A stretch of DNA of 64,000 nucleotides. It comes from Fictibacillus phosphorivorans. GTDB lineage: Bacteria; Bacillota; Bacilli; Bacillales; Fictibacillaceae. Below the pieces are notes generated by a model, which saw only the letters and a list, made by a program, of their open reading frames with translations, was not told the DNA's origin and searched no databases. This document shows, piece by piece, positions 9,617-62,157 of this stretch. The stretch is taken from assembly GCF_001629705.1 (NCBI RefSeq), contig NZ_CP015378.1, forward strand, positions 1,984,001-2,048,000, given 5' to 3'. A program made the position numbers and the translations under genes. Position 1 is the stretch's first letter. Each line of letters opens with the position of its first letter.

Positions 9617-10324
9617 GTGAACCCTTATTTTGATATAATCATTCGATCTGTAGTTGCTTTTTTATCTATATTCCTTGCTGCTCGGATTTTGGGAAAACAA
9701 ACCGTATCTAGAATGACGATTTTTGACTTTATCGCAGTTGTTACACTCGGTTCTGTTACTGCGAACTTAGCGTTTGCTCTAGAAGTAAAAGCACGTTACA
9801 TCTTTCTTGTGTTATTGATCTTTGTTCTTTTAATCTATCTCTCAGCCTTTATTTCTTTAAAGAGTAAACGAGCTCGAAAGTATGTGGCTGGAGATCCAAC
9901 AGTAGTGATCGAGAACGGGAAAATATTAGAAAATAACATGAAGAAAATGCGTTATACACTTGATTATTTAAATCAACAGCTTCGGCAGAAAGATATCTTT
10001 TCGATCGATGATGTTGATTATGCCCTCGTTGAAAATAACGGCCTTCTCTCTGTGAAGAAAAAAGAAGAACTTCTTACTGTCACACGTAAAGATTTACATA
10101 TCGTAAAAGAAGATGTGAAGCTCCCTATAGAGTTGATGATGGATGGAGAAATTCTACAGAACAACTTAAAAGAAAATAACATTTCTAAAGAGTGGCTACT
10201 ACTAGAGCTGAAGAAACGTAATCTTACAGTTGAAAGTGTCGTATACGCATTACTTACTAGCAGCAATAAACTTTATATAGACACACAAGATGATAGATTA
10301 CACTCGCCTTTGGATATAGAGTGA
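9617..10324 (+). CDS. DUF421 (YetF/YkjA/YcaP) membrane protein
   Basis: About 235 residues, the size of B. subtilis YetF. Three N-terminal membrane segments (about 5-25, 35-55, 60-80) contain LGKQTVSRMTIFDFIAVVTLGSV, a DUF421 hallmark; the cytoplasmic half has GDPTVVIENGKIL and the linked YetF repeats. The function of the family is poorly known; spore or cell-envelope roles have been suggested. The start is uncertain: the GTG at 9617 gives the normal N-terminus, but its ribosome site is weak. The frame is open further upstream into the preceding terminator. Confidence 0.8.
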   Translation: MNPYFDIIIRSVVAFLSIFLAARILGKQTVSRMTIFDFIAVVTLGSVTANLAFALEVKARYIFLVLLIFVLLIYLSAFISLKSKRARKYVAGDPTVVIENGKILENNMKKMRYTLDYLNQQLRQKDIFSIDDVDYALVENNGLLSVKKKEELLTVTRKDLHIVKEDVKLPIELMMDGEILQNNLKENNISKEWLLLELKKRNLTVESVVYALLTSSNKLYIDTQDDRLHSPLDIE

Positions 10325-11371: not shown

Positions 11372-11896
11372 TTATTTCCAGTTCTGCTGAATGAAAGTAT
11401 CTCTACCGGATGTTTCTCGTTCTTCTTTATAAGCTTTTGGATTCTTCTTATAGAAATCTTGATGATACTCTTCCGCTTCATAAAACACACTAGCTGGTAG
11501 TATTTCTGTAACAATTGGTTTTTTAAATTTCCCGCTATCTTCTAATTTCATTAAAGATTGTTCAGCAAGTTCTTTTTGCTTCTCATTGTGATAAAAGATT
11601 GCAGTTGTATATTGACTACCCCGATCGATAAACTGACCCCCATCATCCGTTGGATCAATTTGTGGCCAATACAGGTCTAACAATTTTTGATAAGGAAAAA
11701 CCTCTGGATCGAAAGTAATTTGGACAGCTTCACGATGCCCGGTCTTCCCTGTTTTAATCTGTTCATAAGATGGATTTTCAAGTTCTCCACCCGTGTACCC
11801 AGATACAATACCATGAATTCCAGGAAGTTCATCGAAAGGTTTTACCATACACCAGAAACAACCTCCTGCAAAAGTTGCAAGTTCTTTATTACTCAC
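11372..11896 (-). CDS. msrA: Peptide-methionine (S)-S-oxide reductase
   Basis: 174 residues, full-length MsrA without a fused MsrB. Catalytic GCFWC at residues 12-16 with nucleophile Cys13; then GYTGG, GHREAVQITFDP and the EEYHQDFYKKNP motif. Repairs oxidised methionine in proteins using thioredoxin. GTG start preceded by AGGAGG. Single-gene unit. Confidence 0.93.
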   Translation of the reverse strand: MSNKELATFAGGCFWCMVKPFDELPGIHGIVSGYTGGELENPSYEQIKTGKTGHREAVQITFDPEVFPYQKLLDLYWPQIDPTDDGGQFIDRGSQYTTAIFYHNEKQKELAEQSLMKLEDSGKFKKPIVTEILPASVFYEAEEYHQDFYKKNPKAYKEERETSGRDTFIQQNWK

Positions 11897-59125: not shown

Positions 59126-59698
59126 TTAATTCAGTTGCTGGTTATTAACATCAACATGCTTCCAAGTTTTACGTTTTAAAATTAAATAAGCATTAATCCT
59201 TGTCATATCATACTTATCAGCAACGACTGAAGCATATTTAGAAATTGTACCGTCAAAATCTGAGAAGTCTAATAGAATATCAACAATATCATTTTCAGTA
59301 ACTTTACATCTAGGTTTACCCAACCTTTGTTCAGAAAGCCTATCCTTATAATCCAGTGCTTGCGCTGTTCTAGTTCTTAATTCTAGATTATCTGCACTAT
59401 TATCCTCAGGATTTTCATTGCGATGATGTACAGTGAGTCCAATTGATAACCATGAGTTAATCAACATTTGTTGCTTTGCTGCCATGACGATTGCATGAGT
59501 GGTAAATGTTTTCGATCCATTTTCATCGTACAATGTATTCATGTAATAACCAGAATCATTTAAGTTTGACTTTAATTTCTTCAAATATCCTCGTCTAATA
59601 CTATAAATAATACCTTGATCTAAATCCACCCAATAATCACTATAACCTGGTACTCTAGTATATTCCTGCACTAACTTATAATCTAATACATCATTCAT
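59126..59698 (-). CDS. HNH homing-type endonuclease with NUMOD4-like start
   Basis: 190 residues. N-terminal NUMOD4-like GYSDYWVDLDQGIIYSIRRG, central HNH core TTHAIVMAAKQ ... LTVHHRNENPEDNSADNLEL, and a C-terminal helix-turn-helix-like DNA contact region. Free-standing HNH genes of this type move between phage genomes. AAGGAG site in a CCTTA/TAAGG repeat. Catalytic His pair (HH) and Asn are intact. Confidence 0.82.
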   Translation of the reverse strand: MNDVLDYKLVQEYTRVPGYSDYWVDLDQGIIYSIRRGYLKKLKSNLNDSGYYMNTLYDENGSKTFTTHAIVMAAKQQMLINSWLSIGLTVHHRNENPEDNSADNLELRTRTAQALDYKDRLSEQRLGKPRCKVTENDIVDILLDFSDFDGTISKYASVVADKYDMTRINAYLILKRKTWKHVDVNNQQLN

Positions 59699-59750
59699 TT
59701 ATATTCATTCTCCTTAAGATTAATTTGTAAGGTCATAAACCAACAGAAAA

Positions 59751-59776
59751 AGGACTCTGTAAAAACACAGAATCCT
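59751..59776 (-). terminator. Terminator upstream of the HNH gene
   Basis: AGGATTCTGTG / ACAGAGTCCT hairpin with T run on the minus strand. Confidence 0.75.
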
Positions 59777-59954
59777 CTTCATTGATCACCGTCTGAAATT
59801 AATCTCCTGCTACATCACAGGATAAAGAGCGCATCTCACCACTCGAATTTCTCTGTTAAACTTCTATTAAACATCCAAATAATCATGGCTGCTTAATGCA
59901 AATCTAACCGGCTGGTTAACTTTTGTTCCATACCTCCTTTTGAGATTTTCTAGC

Positions 59955-59986
59955 AAAAAAAAAGACACCTACCTAAATGGTGGTGT
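59955..59986 (-). terminator. Terminator next to the repeat array
   Basis: ACACCACC pairs with GGTAGGTGT (one mismatch) and is followed by T9 on the minus strand; it would end any minus-strand transcript of the repeat array. Confidence 0.75.
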
Positions 59987-59997
59987 AGTAGCGTTAA

Positions 59998-60412
59998 ATT
60001 ACCCTTCCTATTACCGATAACGCAAAACTAGTCGTATCAAGGGTTTGAAGGCTGTTCATCGGAAAATTTTAATCAAAGTTTGCGTATCTTGATACTTTTT
60101 AATTTACCCTTCCTATTGTCGAAAGATAAAACCTAGTGCTATCAAGGGTTTGAGCCACATTTTATTTACCTTTTTGATTCAATTTTTGATATTTTTATAT
60201 TTCTCTCCCCTATTGTCGAACCTTTTTAGACACTGAATCCCTTGTGGCTCTAAGAGTTTGAAAATTTCCATCGGAAAAATTTGCTCGTTTTTTGTCATTT
60301 TGCATATTTTGAATTTTACTCTTTCCTATTGCAGATACTTTTACTCAATAGTATCAAGGGTTTCAGGGTTTCCTTTCGGCAAATATTGATCAAAAAGTGC
60401 ATTTTTTTAAGT
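59998..60412. repeat. Four tandem ~105-bp units with conserved bulged-hairpin fold
   Basis: Units share CCTATT (60007, 60112, 60209, 60325; spacing 105, 97, 116), then TATCAAGGGTTT. In each unit an outer stem (ACCCTT/AAGGGT; CTCT/AGAG in unit 3; ACTCTT/AAGGGT in unit 4) encloses a 5' bulge with CCTATT and an inner stem with ~10-base loop: GATAACG/CGTATC, GATA/TATC, TAGACAC/GTG-TCTA, GATACT/AGTATC. Pairing is kept while bases change. A CATCGGAAAA element follows units 1 and 3. The 0.8 kb from 59699 to 60504 holds no credible gene besides this and two terminators. Confidence 0.75.
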
Positions 60413-60504
60413 TTTTTCTTCCTTTAAAGAGTATCCAAGTAAGAAATAGAAAACCGAAAAGCCTTGTTATCATTGCGTTTCTCACTAAGAATGGAACGCT
60501 GAGT

Positions 60505-60942
60505 TTACTTTGTCATCTTCTTATTCTTAAACTTTACTTTTCTCGCTTTTGCCTTTTCTTTCTTTGTATTCTCTTGACAAGATAAACATTTAGCCTGCCT
60601 TTGTTTCGTCACTTCAAATCGGACATTACAATCTGGACAAAGTATGCTATCACCTAGGTTTTTTTTAAGATTAGCAACTAGGACATCTCCAAAGCTGTTC
60701 CATAGCGTTGTCTTATTTTTAGCATTCTTGATACCATACAAATATTCAACCAATACATTTGCAACATACTGTGGATTATTATAAATAGTTAATATTTCTT
60801 CCCTTATATACTGATAAACATAATTGTAGTTCTCTGAACCACCGTGAGATTTATTTATCATAAAACGTTTTTTCTTATCCAGTTCCTCATATTTAGTAAT
60901 GATACGTAAATTTAAATGAACCATATCCAATTCTTTTATCAA
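60505..60942 (-). CDS. Phage protein with C-terminal zinc ribbon (145 aa)
   Basis: Helical N-terminal 90 residues, then CPDCNVRFEVTKQRQAKCLS-CQ, a four-Cys zinc ribbon (C-x2-C ... C-x2-C), and a very basic tail KAKARKVKFKNKK. Likely binds nucleic acid. TTG start after AGGAGG. Lies between the repeat array and the predicted replication gene. Confidence 0.65.
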   Translation of the reverse strand: MIKELDMVHLNLRIITKYEELDKKKRFMINKSHGGSENYNYVYQYIREEILTIYNNPQYVANVLVEYLYGIKNAKNKTTLWNSFGDVLVANLKKNLGDSILCPDCNVRFEVTKQRQAKCLSCQENTKKEKAKARKVKFKNKKMTK

Positions 60943-61002
60943 TTTATATTCCTCCTTATATCTTGAACACCCATTCAGGGTTGTGTTTTTGAAAATGTTA
61001 TA

Positions 61003-61173
61003 TTTTTGCCCTATATAGAATATTGATAATGATTAATAATTTTATATAAAAGTAAAAGGTAAATTAATTTATATTATATGTAGGGTAAATTTGTAACTTA
61101 TTCGTTTAACATTACTCACAGATAAATGTATCTGTATTATAATGTAGGGCAAATTTATAACTTATTCGATTAT
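61003..61173. repeat. Iteron-like direct and inverted repeats
   Basis: TGTAGGG(T/C)AAATTT(G/A)TAAC followed by TTATTCG occurs at 61080-61104 and 61144-61168 (64 bases apart, 2 differences); an inverted partial copy TTTTTGCCCTATAT is at 61004-61017. AT-rich surroundings. Candidate origin iterons or operators for the adjacent protein. Confidence 0.6.
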
Positions 61174-61176
61174 GTA

Positions 61177-62157
61177 TTAAAATGGTAGTTGTTCTATGGG
61201 TATGTTAACTGCTTCAGTCGCTTCCCATTTCTTAATTTCCTCTTCCTTTTCAAACTTCAGCTTTAACAAGTATTCTTTCCGTGGCATTACTTTAATTTTT
61301 TTATATGTGGTAAGTTCGTCAAAAAACAATTCAGAGTCATTAGTTATGTAAGTGTTAGCTTTTCGTTTTTCCTTAATTAACCCTAATGCAAAGAAATCCT
61401 GATTGTGCATACATTGGATCATCTTATACCCTTTCAGTAAGTGAAGATAATTCTTCAATGTCCTTATATTCAATCCTGTTTCTAAAGCTAAGTTCTCGAT
61501 TGATACATCATATCCACCTTCAAATATCTGATTCTTGTATTGAAGGTAAGAGTACAAATAAAATGCTTCGCAGCCTAATTTTTCATTACTCATACAGAAT
61601 AGGAACACCTCAAATGGAATTAAGGTCGTATTATCAATAAAATAAAACGTTCCATCTTCATCATTGTCATCAAATCTGTAGAAAGCCTTCACTGGGAATT
61701 TAATCGTATATTTACGGCTACTCCGATTCTTTACGTATTTCTGCATTTCTACATCAAGATCACTAAGCATTGAAAACTCTAGGTAACCATCTTCAAACAT
61801 TGCGCTTATTGGATAATCCTTAACTGTAGATAAATATCCCATTTCCTCTAGGACACCATTCTTCTTAATTAGATAATCTAATCCTTTAGTCATCTGGTTG
61901 TATCCTAAAATCTCTTTCATACTTATTGTTCCTTCTTTTGTACTGCTTGTGGCTTCTATTATTCCATTATGTTTCGCATATCTATAAAGCCATGTTGCAA
62001 GATAGATATAACAATAAGAAAAGGCCTTATGTGCTGGAGATTTGATGTCATTATTGTTTTTAAGGTCATCAAAAATCTCGTTCGGTATGTAAATCTTGCT
62101 TTCATAACCTGTATCCTCATCAAATTGCAGTAGCTTTATCAATTCTTCACGTTGCAA
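61177..62157 (-). CDS. Putative replication initiator / winged-helix protein (326 aa)
   Basis: Begins QREELIKLLQFDEDTGYESK; the middle has SIENLALETGLNIRTLKNYLHLLKGYKMI, a clear helix-turn-helix (about 243-271). Size, a single central HTH, a TTG start after GGTGAAA, and iteron-like repeats on both sides fit a plasmid- or phage-type replication initiator; a repressor is the alternative. Not assigned to a named Rep family. Confidence 0.5.
   Translation of the reverse strand: MQREELIKLLQFDEDTGYESKIYIPNEIFDDLKNNNDIKSPAHKAFSYCYIYLATWLYRYAKHNGIIEATSSTKEGTISMKEILGYNQMTKGLDYLIKKNGVLEEMGYLSTVKDYPISAMFEDGYLEFSMLSDLDVEMQKYVKNRSSRKYTIKFPVKAFYRFDDNDEDGTFYFIDNTTLIPFEVFLFCMSNEKLGCEAFYLYSYLQYKNQIFEGGYDVSIENLALETGLNIRTLKNYLHLLKGYKMIQCMHNQDFFALGLIKEKRKANTYITNDSELFFDELTTYKKIKVMPRKEYLLKLKFEKEEEIKKWEATEAVNIPIEQLPF

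Follow-up and report, generated by a model that had tools for sequence, protein, structure and literature searches.

What function is served by four diverged units that recur about 105 bp apart (59998-60412; 318 bp across three steps) in a prophage of Fictibacillus phosphorivorans? Positions refer throughout to the window, which is the whole 64-kb stretch of DNA that was analyzed. The initial annotation took the units for a structured element kept under selection for folding, either as RNA or as extruded DNA. Here we propose, with a probability of roughly 0.55, that the array consists of phased sites for an IHF-type DNA-bending protein, probably of the HU family, near the prophage origin.

The array comprises four units that share a 5' module and a short site

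The four-unit tandem array that had been noticed in the bare letters proved real, with its CCTATT modules starting at 60007, 60112, 60209 and 60325, which corresponds to steps of 105, 97 and 116. In the alignment, this word is identical in the 5' part of all four units. The array occupies the gap between an HNH ORF (59126-59698, minus strand) and a 145-aa ORF on the same strand; three short ORFs on the plus strand (43, 48 and 62 aa) overlap it or its end. The spacing of the units is about ten helical turns. Within the units, the pattern CAAGGG[AT]TT has four matches in the window, all of which lie inside the array, one per unit, with that of unit 3 inverted. Shuffling the array with dinucleotides preserved gave a mean of 0.014 matches and a maximum of 1 (5000 shuffles), and shuffling the whole 64-kb window gave a mean of 1.0 and a maximum of 4 (30 shuffles). 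The word CAAGGGTTT lies 30-31 bases past CCTATT in units 1, 2 and 4, and the minus strand of unit 3 carries CAAGGGATT. The features of the array and its left flank are the following.

59747..59780, minus strand: terminator-like hairpin for minus-strand transcripts (terminator program)
59998..60017, plus strand: 5' module of unit 1, ATTACCCTTCCTATTACCGA (repeat search, alignment)
60030..60048, plus strand: site of unit 1, AGTCGTATCAAGGGTTTGA (exact pattern match; fits WATCAANNNNTTR; A-run immediately 5' by eye)
60101..60122, plus strand: 5' module of unit 2, AATTTACCCTTCCTATTGTCGA (repeat search, inverted repeat I3)
60135..60153, plus strand: site of unit 2, AGTGCTATCAAGGGTTTGA (exact pattern match; fits WATCAANNNNTTR; A-run immediately 5' by eye)
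60203..60219, plus strand: 5' module of unit 3, CTCTCCCCTATTGTCGA (repeat search, alignment)
60236..60244, minus strand: site of unit 3, CAAGGGATT, in the opposite orientation (pattern match)
60318..60335, plus strand: 5' module of unit 4, ACTCTTTCCTATTGCAGA (repeat search, alignment)
60347..60365, plus strand: site of unit 4, AATAGTATCAAGGGTTTCA (2 mismatches to the motif; the purine that closes the IHF consensus is absent)

A further minus-strand terminator, proposed earlier at 59955-59986, is absent from the list of the terminator program but appears by eye as a bulged hairpin with a minus-strand T run. Elsewhere in the window, a SAM riboswitch lies at 490-594 on the plus strand (Rfam RF00162, 86.7 bits).

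Unit 3 has weak relatives in Enterococcus plasmids (BLAST, among the matches listed, E 0.1-2). In L011 (1480-1545) and L012, which are Enterococcus and Lactococcus plasmids, a relative of unit 3, AGACGCTGAATCCCTTGGGGCTC, lies between GGGTATGAAAATCATA repeats. Many of the other Enterococcus records among those listed have a similar match inside the gene for replication initiator protein A.

The site recurs across Bacillota and viral contigs

Searches with the DNA of the whole array gave best E values of 0.2 in phages and 0.1 in plasmids. The motif AGTNNTATCAAGGGTTTGA was reached through these weak matches, which came from phages of streptococci, from satellites and from enterococcal plasmids. 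We found this motif at 36 loci in viral contigs, several of them near-identical, versus 3 loci for a reversed control pattern. In species genomes it was found at 99 loci, which by their titles divide into 70 (71 hits) from Bacillota and 29 from other sources, including two unassigned MAGs. Matches fell inside an open frame of at least 100 aa for 15 of the 71 Bacillota hits, 18 of the 29 others and 13 of the 36 viral loci, which suggests that the Bacillota matches lie mostly outside long frames and that many of the non-Bacillota matches are due to chance. Only 1 of 34 genomes of the family carries the strict motif, namely that of F. phosphorivorans itself, and the array sequence has matches at E <= 0.01 in 7 of 60 related genomes, of which one is its own and six hold short matches.

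When the N4 of the consensus was left free, the 106 matches that were read contained 47 different N4 words, and 81 of the 106 lay in open frames of at least 100 aa; among the distinct words outside such frames, about half have a central GG. A 31-base consensus search, from which 60 of 159 records were listed at even steps, returned many matches that look like chance and are located in S. thermophilus phage genes for tail or structural proteins. Our searches of the open-access literature found no description of the motif, and a letter search with ATCAAGGGTTT returned, by titles, no paper about it. That the site recurs so widely in Bacillota is a stronger and more general result than the reading of the array.

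The site lies beside integrase and primase genes and at tRNA ends

The settings of the site were assessed at 59 non-redundant loci, which remained from 107 Bacillota and viral matches after removal of matches in open frames of at least 300 aa and of matches with flanks more than 80% identical. Their 98 nearest-neighbor proteins (at least 110 aa, within 2 kb) include 12 phage integrases, 8 DUF5906 proteins and 6 D5_N proteins. Among 58 control proteins from non-Bacillota matches, a set that also included ORFs containing the match itself, neither integrase nor DUF5906/D5_N was among the families with at least two members (best 25 of 122 families), and one Rep_1 protein was listed. Pfam placed 8 of 20 hand-picked neighbors among primase-helicase types (DUF5906, D5_N, Pox_D5, VapE-like) and 7 among integrases; ten further neighbor proteins checked singly comprised no integrase and no primase.

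A gene called DNA primase lies near the site in phages phiZJ20091101-1, Wanderer, phiEG37K and QT1 and in the satellites Javan309 and Javan727, and in phage SMP the site follows an unnamed gene that comes after the replication protein. By eye, the site near primase genes is ringed by repeats such as GTAAC or GGTCAACA. Integrase genes adjoin the site in phages LYGO9, IME1323_01 and LFP01. Of the 40 loci scanned with ARAGORN, 9 contain a tRNA or tmRNA gene. In these, the site lies 1 base after the end of one tRNA-Leu gene and directly after another, overlaps the end of tRNA-Pro by 1 base or lies 60 bases after tRNA-Ser; it also lies 18 bases past three tmRNA genes, and two further tmRNA loci are among the nine. 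By eye, the site is found at the 3' ends of groEL and ffh as well. Attachment sites and origins, the locations typical of IHF, are therefore those of the motif generally, with the origin role suggested by the neighboring genes.

Other settings were also observed. RecR accounts for 4 of the 98 neighbor proteins, and in this group near recR no mobile element is demonstrable. In the clostridial-type loci L099, L118, L129 and L137, a 199-aa ORF, which is RecR in L118, precedes the site by about 300-400 bp; by eye, the flanks of the recR group form a longer conserved non-coding stretch, which is also found in L119, L121, L132, L142 and L158. In phage P7132 the site lies near terS, possibly in a packaging (cos) context, and in an SPbeta-type phage it lies beside unnamed genes. 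Both ends of L136, a Metabacillus niabensis contig of 4788 bases, carry the site together with an identical flank, which suggests that the contig is probably a circular plasmid. Locus L293 (568-2224) consists of an HNH gene, a 190-aa recombinase, two sites and then a terS-like gene, and is possibly a cos region.

The site resembles that of IHF

In Gram-negatives, IHF acts at origins and attachment sites, examples being the IHF sites of lambda attP and of iteron origins. To our knowledge, Bacillota have no recognized IHF. The stretch TATCAAGGGTTTG of the motif fits the IHF consensus WATCAANNNNTTR given in PMC4585315. Two of the four units (1 and 2) match this consensus in full, with unit 4 lacking the purine and unit 3 being inverted and diverged. 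According to PMC8421141, most of the strongest IHF sites carry an A-tract to the left of the consensus. The frequency of A across the unselected positions -8 to -4 was 51, 49, 51, 87 and 68% in 47 outside loci (those of the 59 with open frames below 110 aa and full flanks), which therefore show the A-tract of strong IHF sites, as do units 1 and 2 by eye. In the unselected right arm of 23 sites, some of which are surely chance, G is found at position 12 in 14 and at position 13 in 12, T at position 15 in 17, and T or C at position 16 in 20. The right end is thus TY and not strictly TTR, and GG is favored where IHF needs none, which suggests that the protein that reads the site may be another one.

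The host genome encodes three DNABII proteins, none of which reaches any of the equivalog cut-offs for IHF or HU. Their best models are HU-alpha for two and HU-beta for one, and one of them, L183, scores 95.6 bits with IHF-alpha and 97.6 bits with the best HU model, both below cut-off. Because none of the three reaches an IHF cut-off, the HU family is the most likely source of the binder. The site shares with Gram-negative IHF sites the core TATCAA-N4-TT, the upstream A-run, and a position at attachment sites and near replication genes among repeats, whereas it differs in the GG favored within N4, the looser right end, the four phased copies and a host without a protein above the IHF cut-offs. 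A partial parallel is found in the Sin recombinase, for which HU (HBsu) is described as the architectural cofactor and IHF with a cognate site as its substitute (PMC2764113). As in the Sin system, an HU-family bender would work within a nucleoprotein complex here; unlike in that system, where HU is not described as needing a comparable motif (PMC2764113), the motif would place the protein.

The array lies downstream of an initiator-like gene and iterons

On its right side, the array is followed by these features.

60505..60942, minus strand: 145-aa ORF, YonO-related (30-37% identity, best E 7e-15)
60991..61016, minus strand: inverted iteron-like copy (inverted repeat I1; 26 nt with 81% complementarity to copy 2)
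61078..61108, plus strand: iteron copy 1 (family D3; copies 90% identical, 64 apart)
61142..61172, plus strand: iteron copy 2, directly 3' of the initiator-like gene (repeat search)
61177..62157, minus strand: 326-aa initiator-like protein, PHROG 19047 (homology)

A homologue of the 326-aa protein is called 'replication initiator' in one Bacillus phage PJN02 record and 'transcriptional regulator' or 'hypothetical' in others, and the protein has a weak DnaD-like match. It is likely an origin-binding initiator, and its gene lies next to direct repeats, which would suit an iteron origin if the initiator label, taken from that one record and the DnaD-like match, is right. The expected number of chance occurrences of the iteron core pattern in the window is 0.00. 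The array begins about 0.8 kb downstream of the initiator-like gene (units at 0.8-1.2 kb), past the iterons and one small ORF. Over its first 16 nt, the unit 2 5' module shows 88% complementarity to 61076-61091, which lies in iteron copy 1, a presumed initiator site.

Comparable arrangements are found in other phages. In Geobacillus virus E3, a homologous gene is likewise directly followed by two direct and two inverted repeats, but the repeat sequence differs and the 10.8 kb examined hold no site with fewer than 4 mismatches. The other five phages with relatives of the initiator-like gene have no copy of the site with at most 2 mismatches. Thus, around its relatives the gene lacks the site (<=2 mismatches) in six phages, which indicates that the array is not its fixed partner. 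The origin of Streptococcus phage Sfi21 (302 bp, non-coding; NC_000872) lies downstream of a putative primase gene and by eye contains GTAAC-type repeats and AAACC..GGGTTT elements; unlike the present locus, it has no 105-bp array and no copy with at most 2 mismatches, the best having 3 of 13.

The 145-aa ORF corresponds to the C-terminal end of SPbeta-type YonO, which some records annotate as a DNA-directed RNA polymerase. It matches only the last ~110 of the 847 positions of PHROG 8308, as a small gene of its own that contains CxxC pairs. No relative was confirmed when viral contigs were scanned with either the 145-aa or the 326-aa protein. In L019, L020 and L048, a YonO-type gene lies directly upstream of two sites (PHROG 8308 tested in L019 and L020). 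A link between the motif and YonO was considered and dropped, as the 145-aa ORF has no significant match to the L019 protein (E 0.72). Beyond the window lie a XerC/D-like recombinase (L059, 5900-6835) and then ORFs taken for host genes, which by our reading places the end of the prophage there.

A second array of similar period is found in a viral contig

Extra copies of the site with at most 3 mismatches are found at 9 per 85,344 starts within 400 bp of a site, versus 6 per 669,089 starts beyond 1 kb (both strands). In the metagenomic viral contig L291, sites lie at 10234, 10338 and 10440 (steps of 104 and 102), and the unit occurs once more at 11451. This contig has a 5' module of its own, which differs from that of the prophage and recurs at steps of 102 and 103, and we take its layout to be independent of that of the Fictibacillus array. 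By eye, the L291 array lies between structural (capsid-like) and recombinase-like ORFs, with no recognized replication gene adjoining. Pairs of sites are found 123 bp apart in L019, L020 and L048 and 98 bp apart in L293.

A tandem scan of viral contigs returned L288, L289, L290 and L291. By eye, L288 is a duplicated stretch and L289 a coding-like repeat, and L290 adjoins an integrase-like ORF. Among 397 genomes of the order, the tandem pattern is found in three, namely the present one, G388 and G141; in G388 it is a 53-base tandem repeat that looks unrelated.

Folding and other explanations for the array

Selection on folding had been proposed from changes that seem to compensate each other across two stems. 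The complementary segments are present, although the 3' strands of both stems, AAGGGT and TATC, belong in units 1, 2 and 4 to a constant DNA word and lie inside the motif TATCAAGGGTTT. By our reading, the two-sided changes come from unit 3, with its inverted site, and from the two bases preceding TATC. No covariation was found, and RNAalifold, run on a MAFFT alignment of the units that is not structure-aware, returned 0 pairs. The folds at best weakly exceeded shuffles: single-strand DNA folds of separate units gave z from -1.5 to +1.0, and a joint fold test of the four units gave fractions from 0.013 to 0.293, which varied with strand, parameters and shuffle. The best of these fractions, for minus-strand RNA, was 0.013 with the whole unit shuffled and 0.090 with shuffling confined to the 5' half. 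When the window and 23 chosen loci were searched with a sequence model built from the four units, outside loci were matched only over positions 17-51 of 53, mostly 21-51, which is the half that contains the site. No Rfam family reached its gathering score in the array, the nine permissive matches in 59700-60520 all being below it, and promoter-like sites were fewer than in shuffles (4 versus 7.8).

The outcome that the initial annotation had named as refuting its folding claim, namely homologues that keep the sequence but do not covary, was the one observed. In 33 non-redundant outside sites (open frames below 100 aa, AGTCATATCAA fixed and one arm partly fixed, among the matches listed, some surely chance), the arms paired no better than permuted ones, with 2.67 of 6 arm pairs versus 2.81 (p 0.88; p 0.95 with G-T allowed). 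The 27 of these with T at position 15 gave p 0.80, and 0.88 with G-T. A swap test of the motif and its near flank, which is blind to a stem that never varies, gave z from -1.1 to +0.7. Over -40..+30 the same test showed excess pairing (z -3.6 for RNA and -3.3 for DNA), which we ascribe to probable inverted repeats outside the motif. The folds, RNAalifold, the sequence model and the arm covariation led us to reject structured RNA as a candidate.

A structured non-coding RNA of the prophage, transcribed from the minus strand and ended at 59747-59780 (by eye also at 59955-59986), would account for the fraction of 0.013 in the joint test, for the terminator-like site downstream on that strand and for the minus-strand orientation of the larger neighboring ORFs. 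We nevertheless consider it very unlikely, given that the units share no consensus fold and differ in their predicted folds, that the arms of the 33 outside sites do not covary, that no Rfam family was matched at gathering score, and that the part common to the units has the opposite orientation in unit 3 and recurs at tRNA ends, integrases and primases of other elements. Extruded hairpins with the stem AAAYYY/GGGTTT and the loop AGTNNTATCAA could instead serve as single-strand initiation or primase signals in phage replication. Consistent with this idea, pyrimidines are favored opposite GGG (90% at -1, 69% at -2 and 66% at -3), D5/VapE-type primases are often neighbors, and good palindromes exist, such as AAACCCTT/AAGGGTTT in L290 and SPBc2, of which the SPBc2 copy is annotated as a stem_loop. 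However, native arms pair no better than permuted ones (p 0.80-0.95, for AGTCATATCAA sites with one arm partly fixed), the swap test of the motif and near flank showed no excess, and the motif is also found at attachment sites, where priming is not expected, so that we regard the hairpins as unlikely.

The same sites could mark a function other than an origin, such as a centromere-like partition or maintenance site, a packaging site or a recombination site. A centromere would suit the regular spacing, and the capsid-like and recombinase-like ORFs seen by eye near the L291 array, together with the two sites 98 bp apart beside the HNH, recombinase and terS-like genes of L293, are in keeping with such a role. 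However, a ParA-like protein is absent among the nine window proteins tested, and the commonest recognized neighbors of the site are integrases and primase-helicases, which makes this explanation rather unlikely.

Discussion

We favor the reading that the array holds phased sites for a DNA-bending protein near the prophage origin. What was observed is the motif, its recurrence at primase and integrase genes, the iterons, the lack of arm covariation and a second array of similar period; from these we infer the binding protein, the bending and the status of the array as part of a working origin. Of the functions listed in the initial annotation, a replication locus is now the best supported, whereas the inference of folded RNA or extruded DNA did not hold. 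The comparison carries a general lesson, which is that a conserved protein site with partial dyad symmetry can be taken for an RNA fold with covariation as long as the comparison is limited to a few tandem copies.

In the mechanism that we propose, the initiator would bind the iterons and perhaps also the iteron-like 5' module of the units. With a bender on each unit, the DNA would be folded on a single helical face, and the resulting compact nucleoprotein complex would help to open or activate the origin. More broadly, we tentatively suggest, at somewhat less than even odds, that Bacillota hold an equivalent of IHF that consists of the site (A-run, AGTNN, TATCAA, NGGN, TT) and a host architectural protein, both of which phages, satellites and plasmids would use for integration and replication, with the four-fold array of about ten-turn spacing found here and reached separately in another phage.

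If this is correct, then mobile elements of Gram-positive bacteria would share a placed DNA-bending site in the role that IHF has in Gram-negatives, which would give studies of Bacillota integrases and origins a concrete host factor to seek. The motif would also help to locate origins and attachment sites by sequence, and the phased arrays would provide a setting in which to test how a bender acts in repeated copies.
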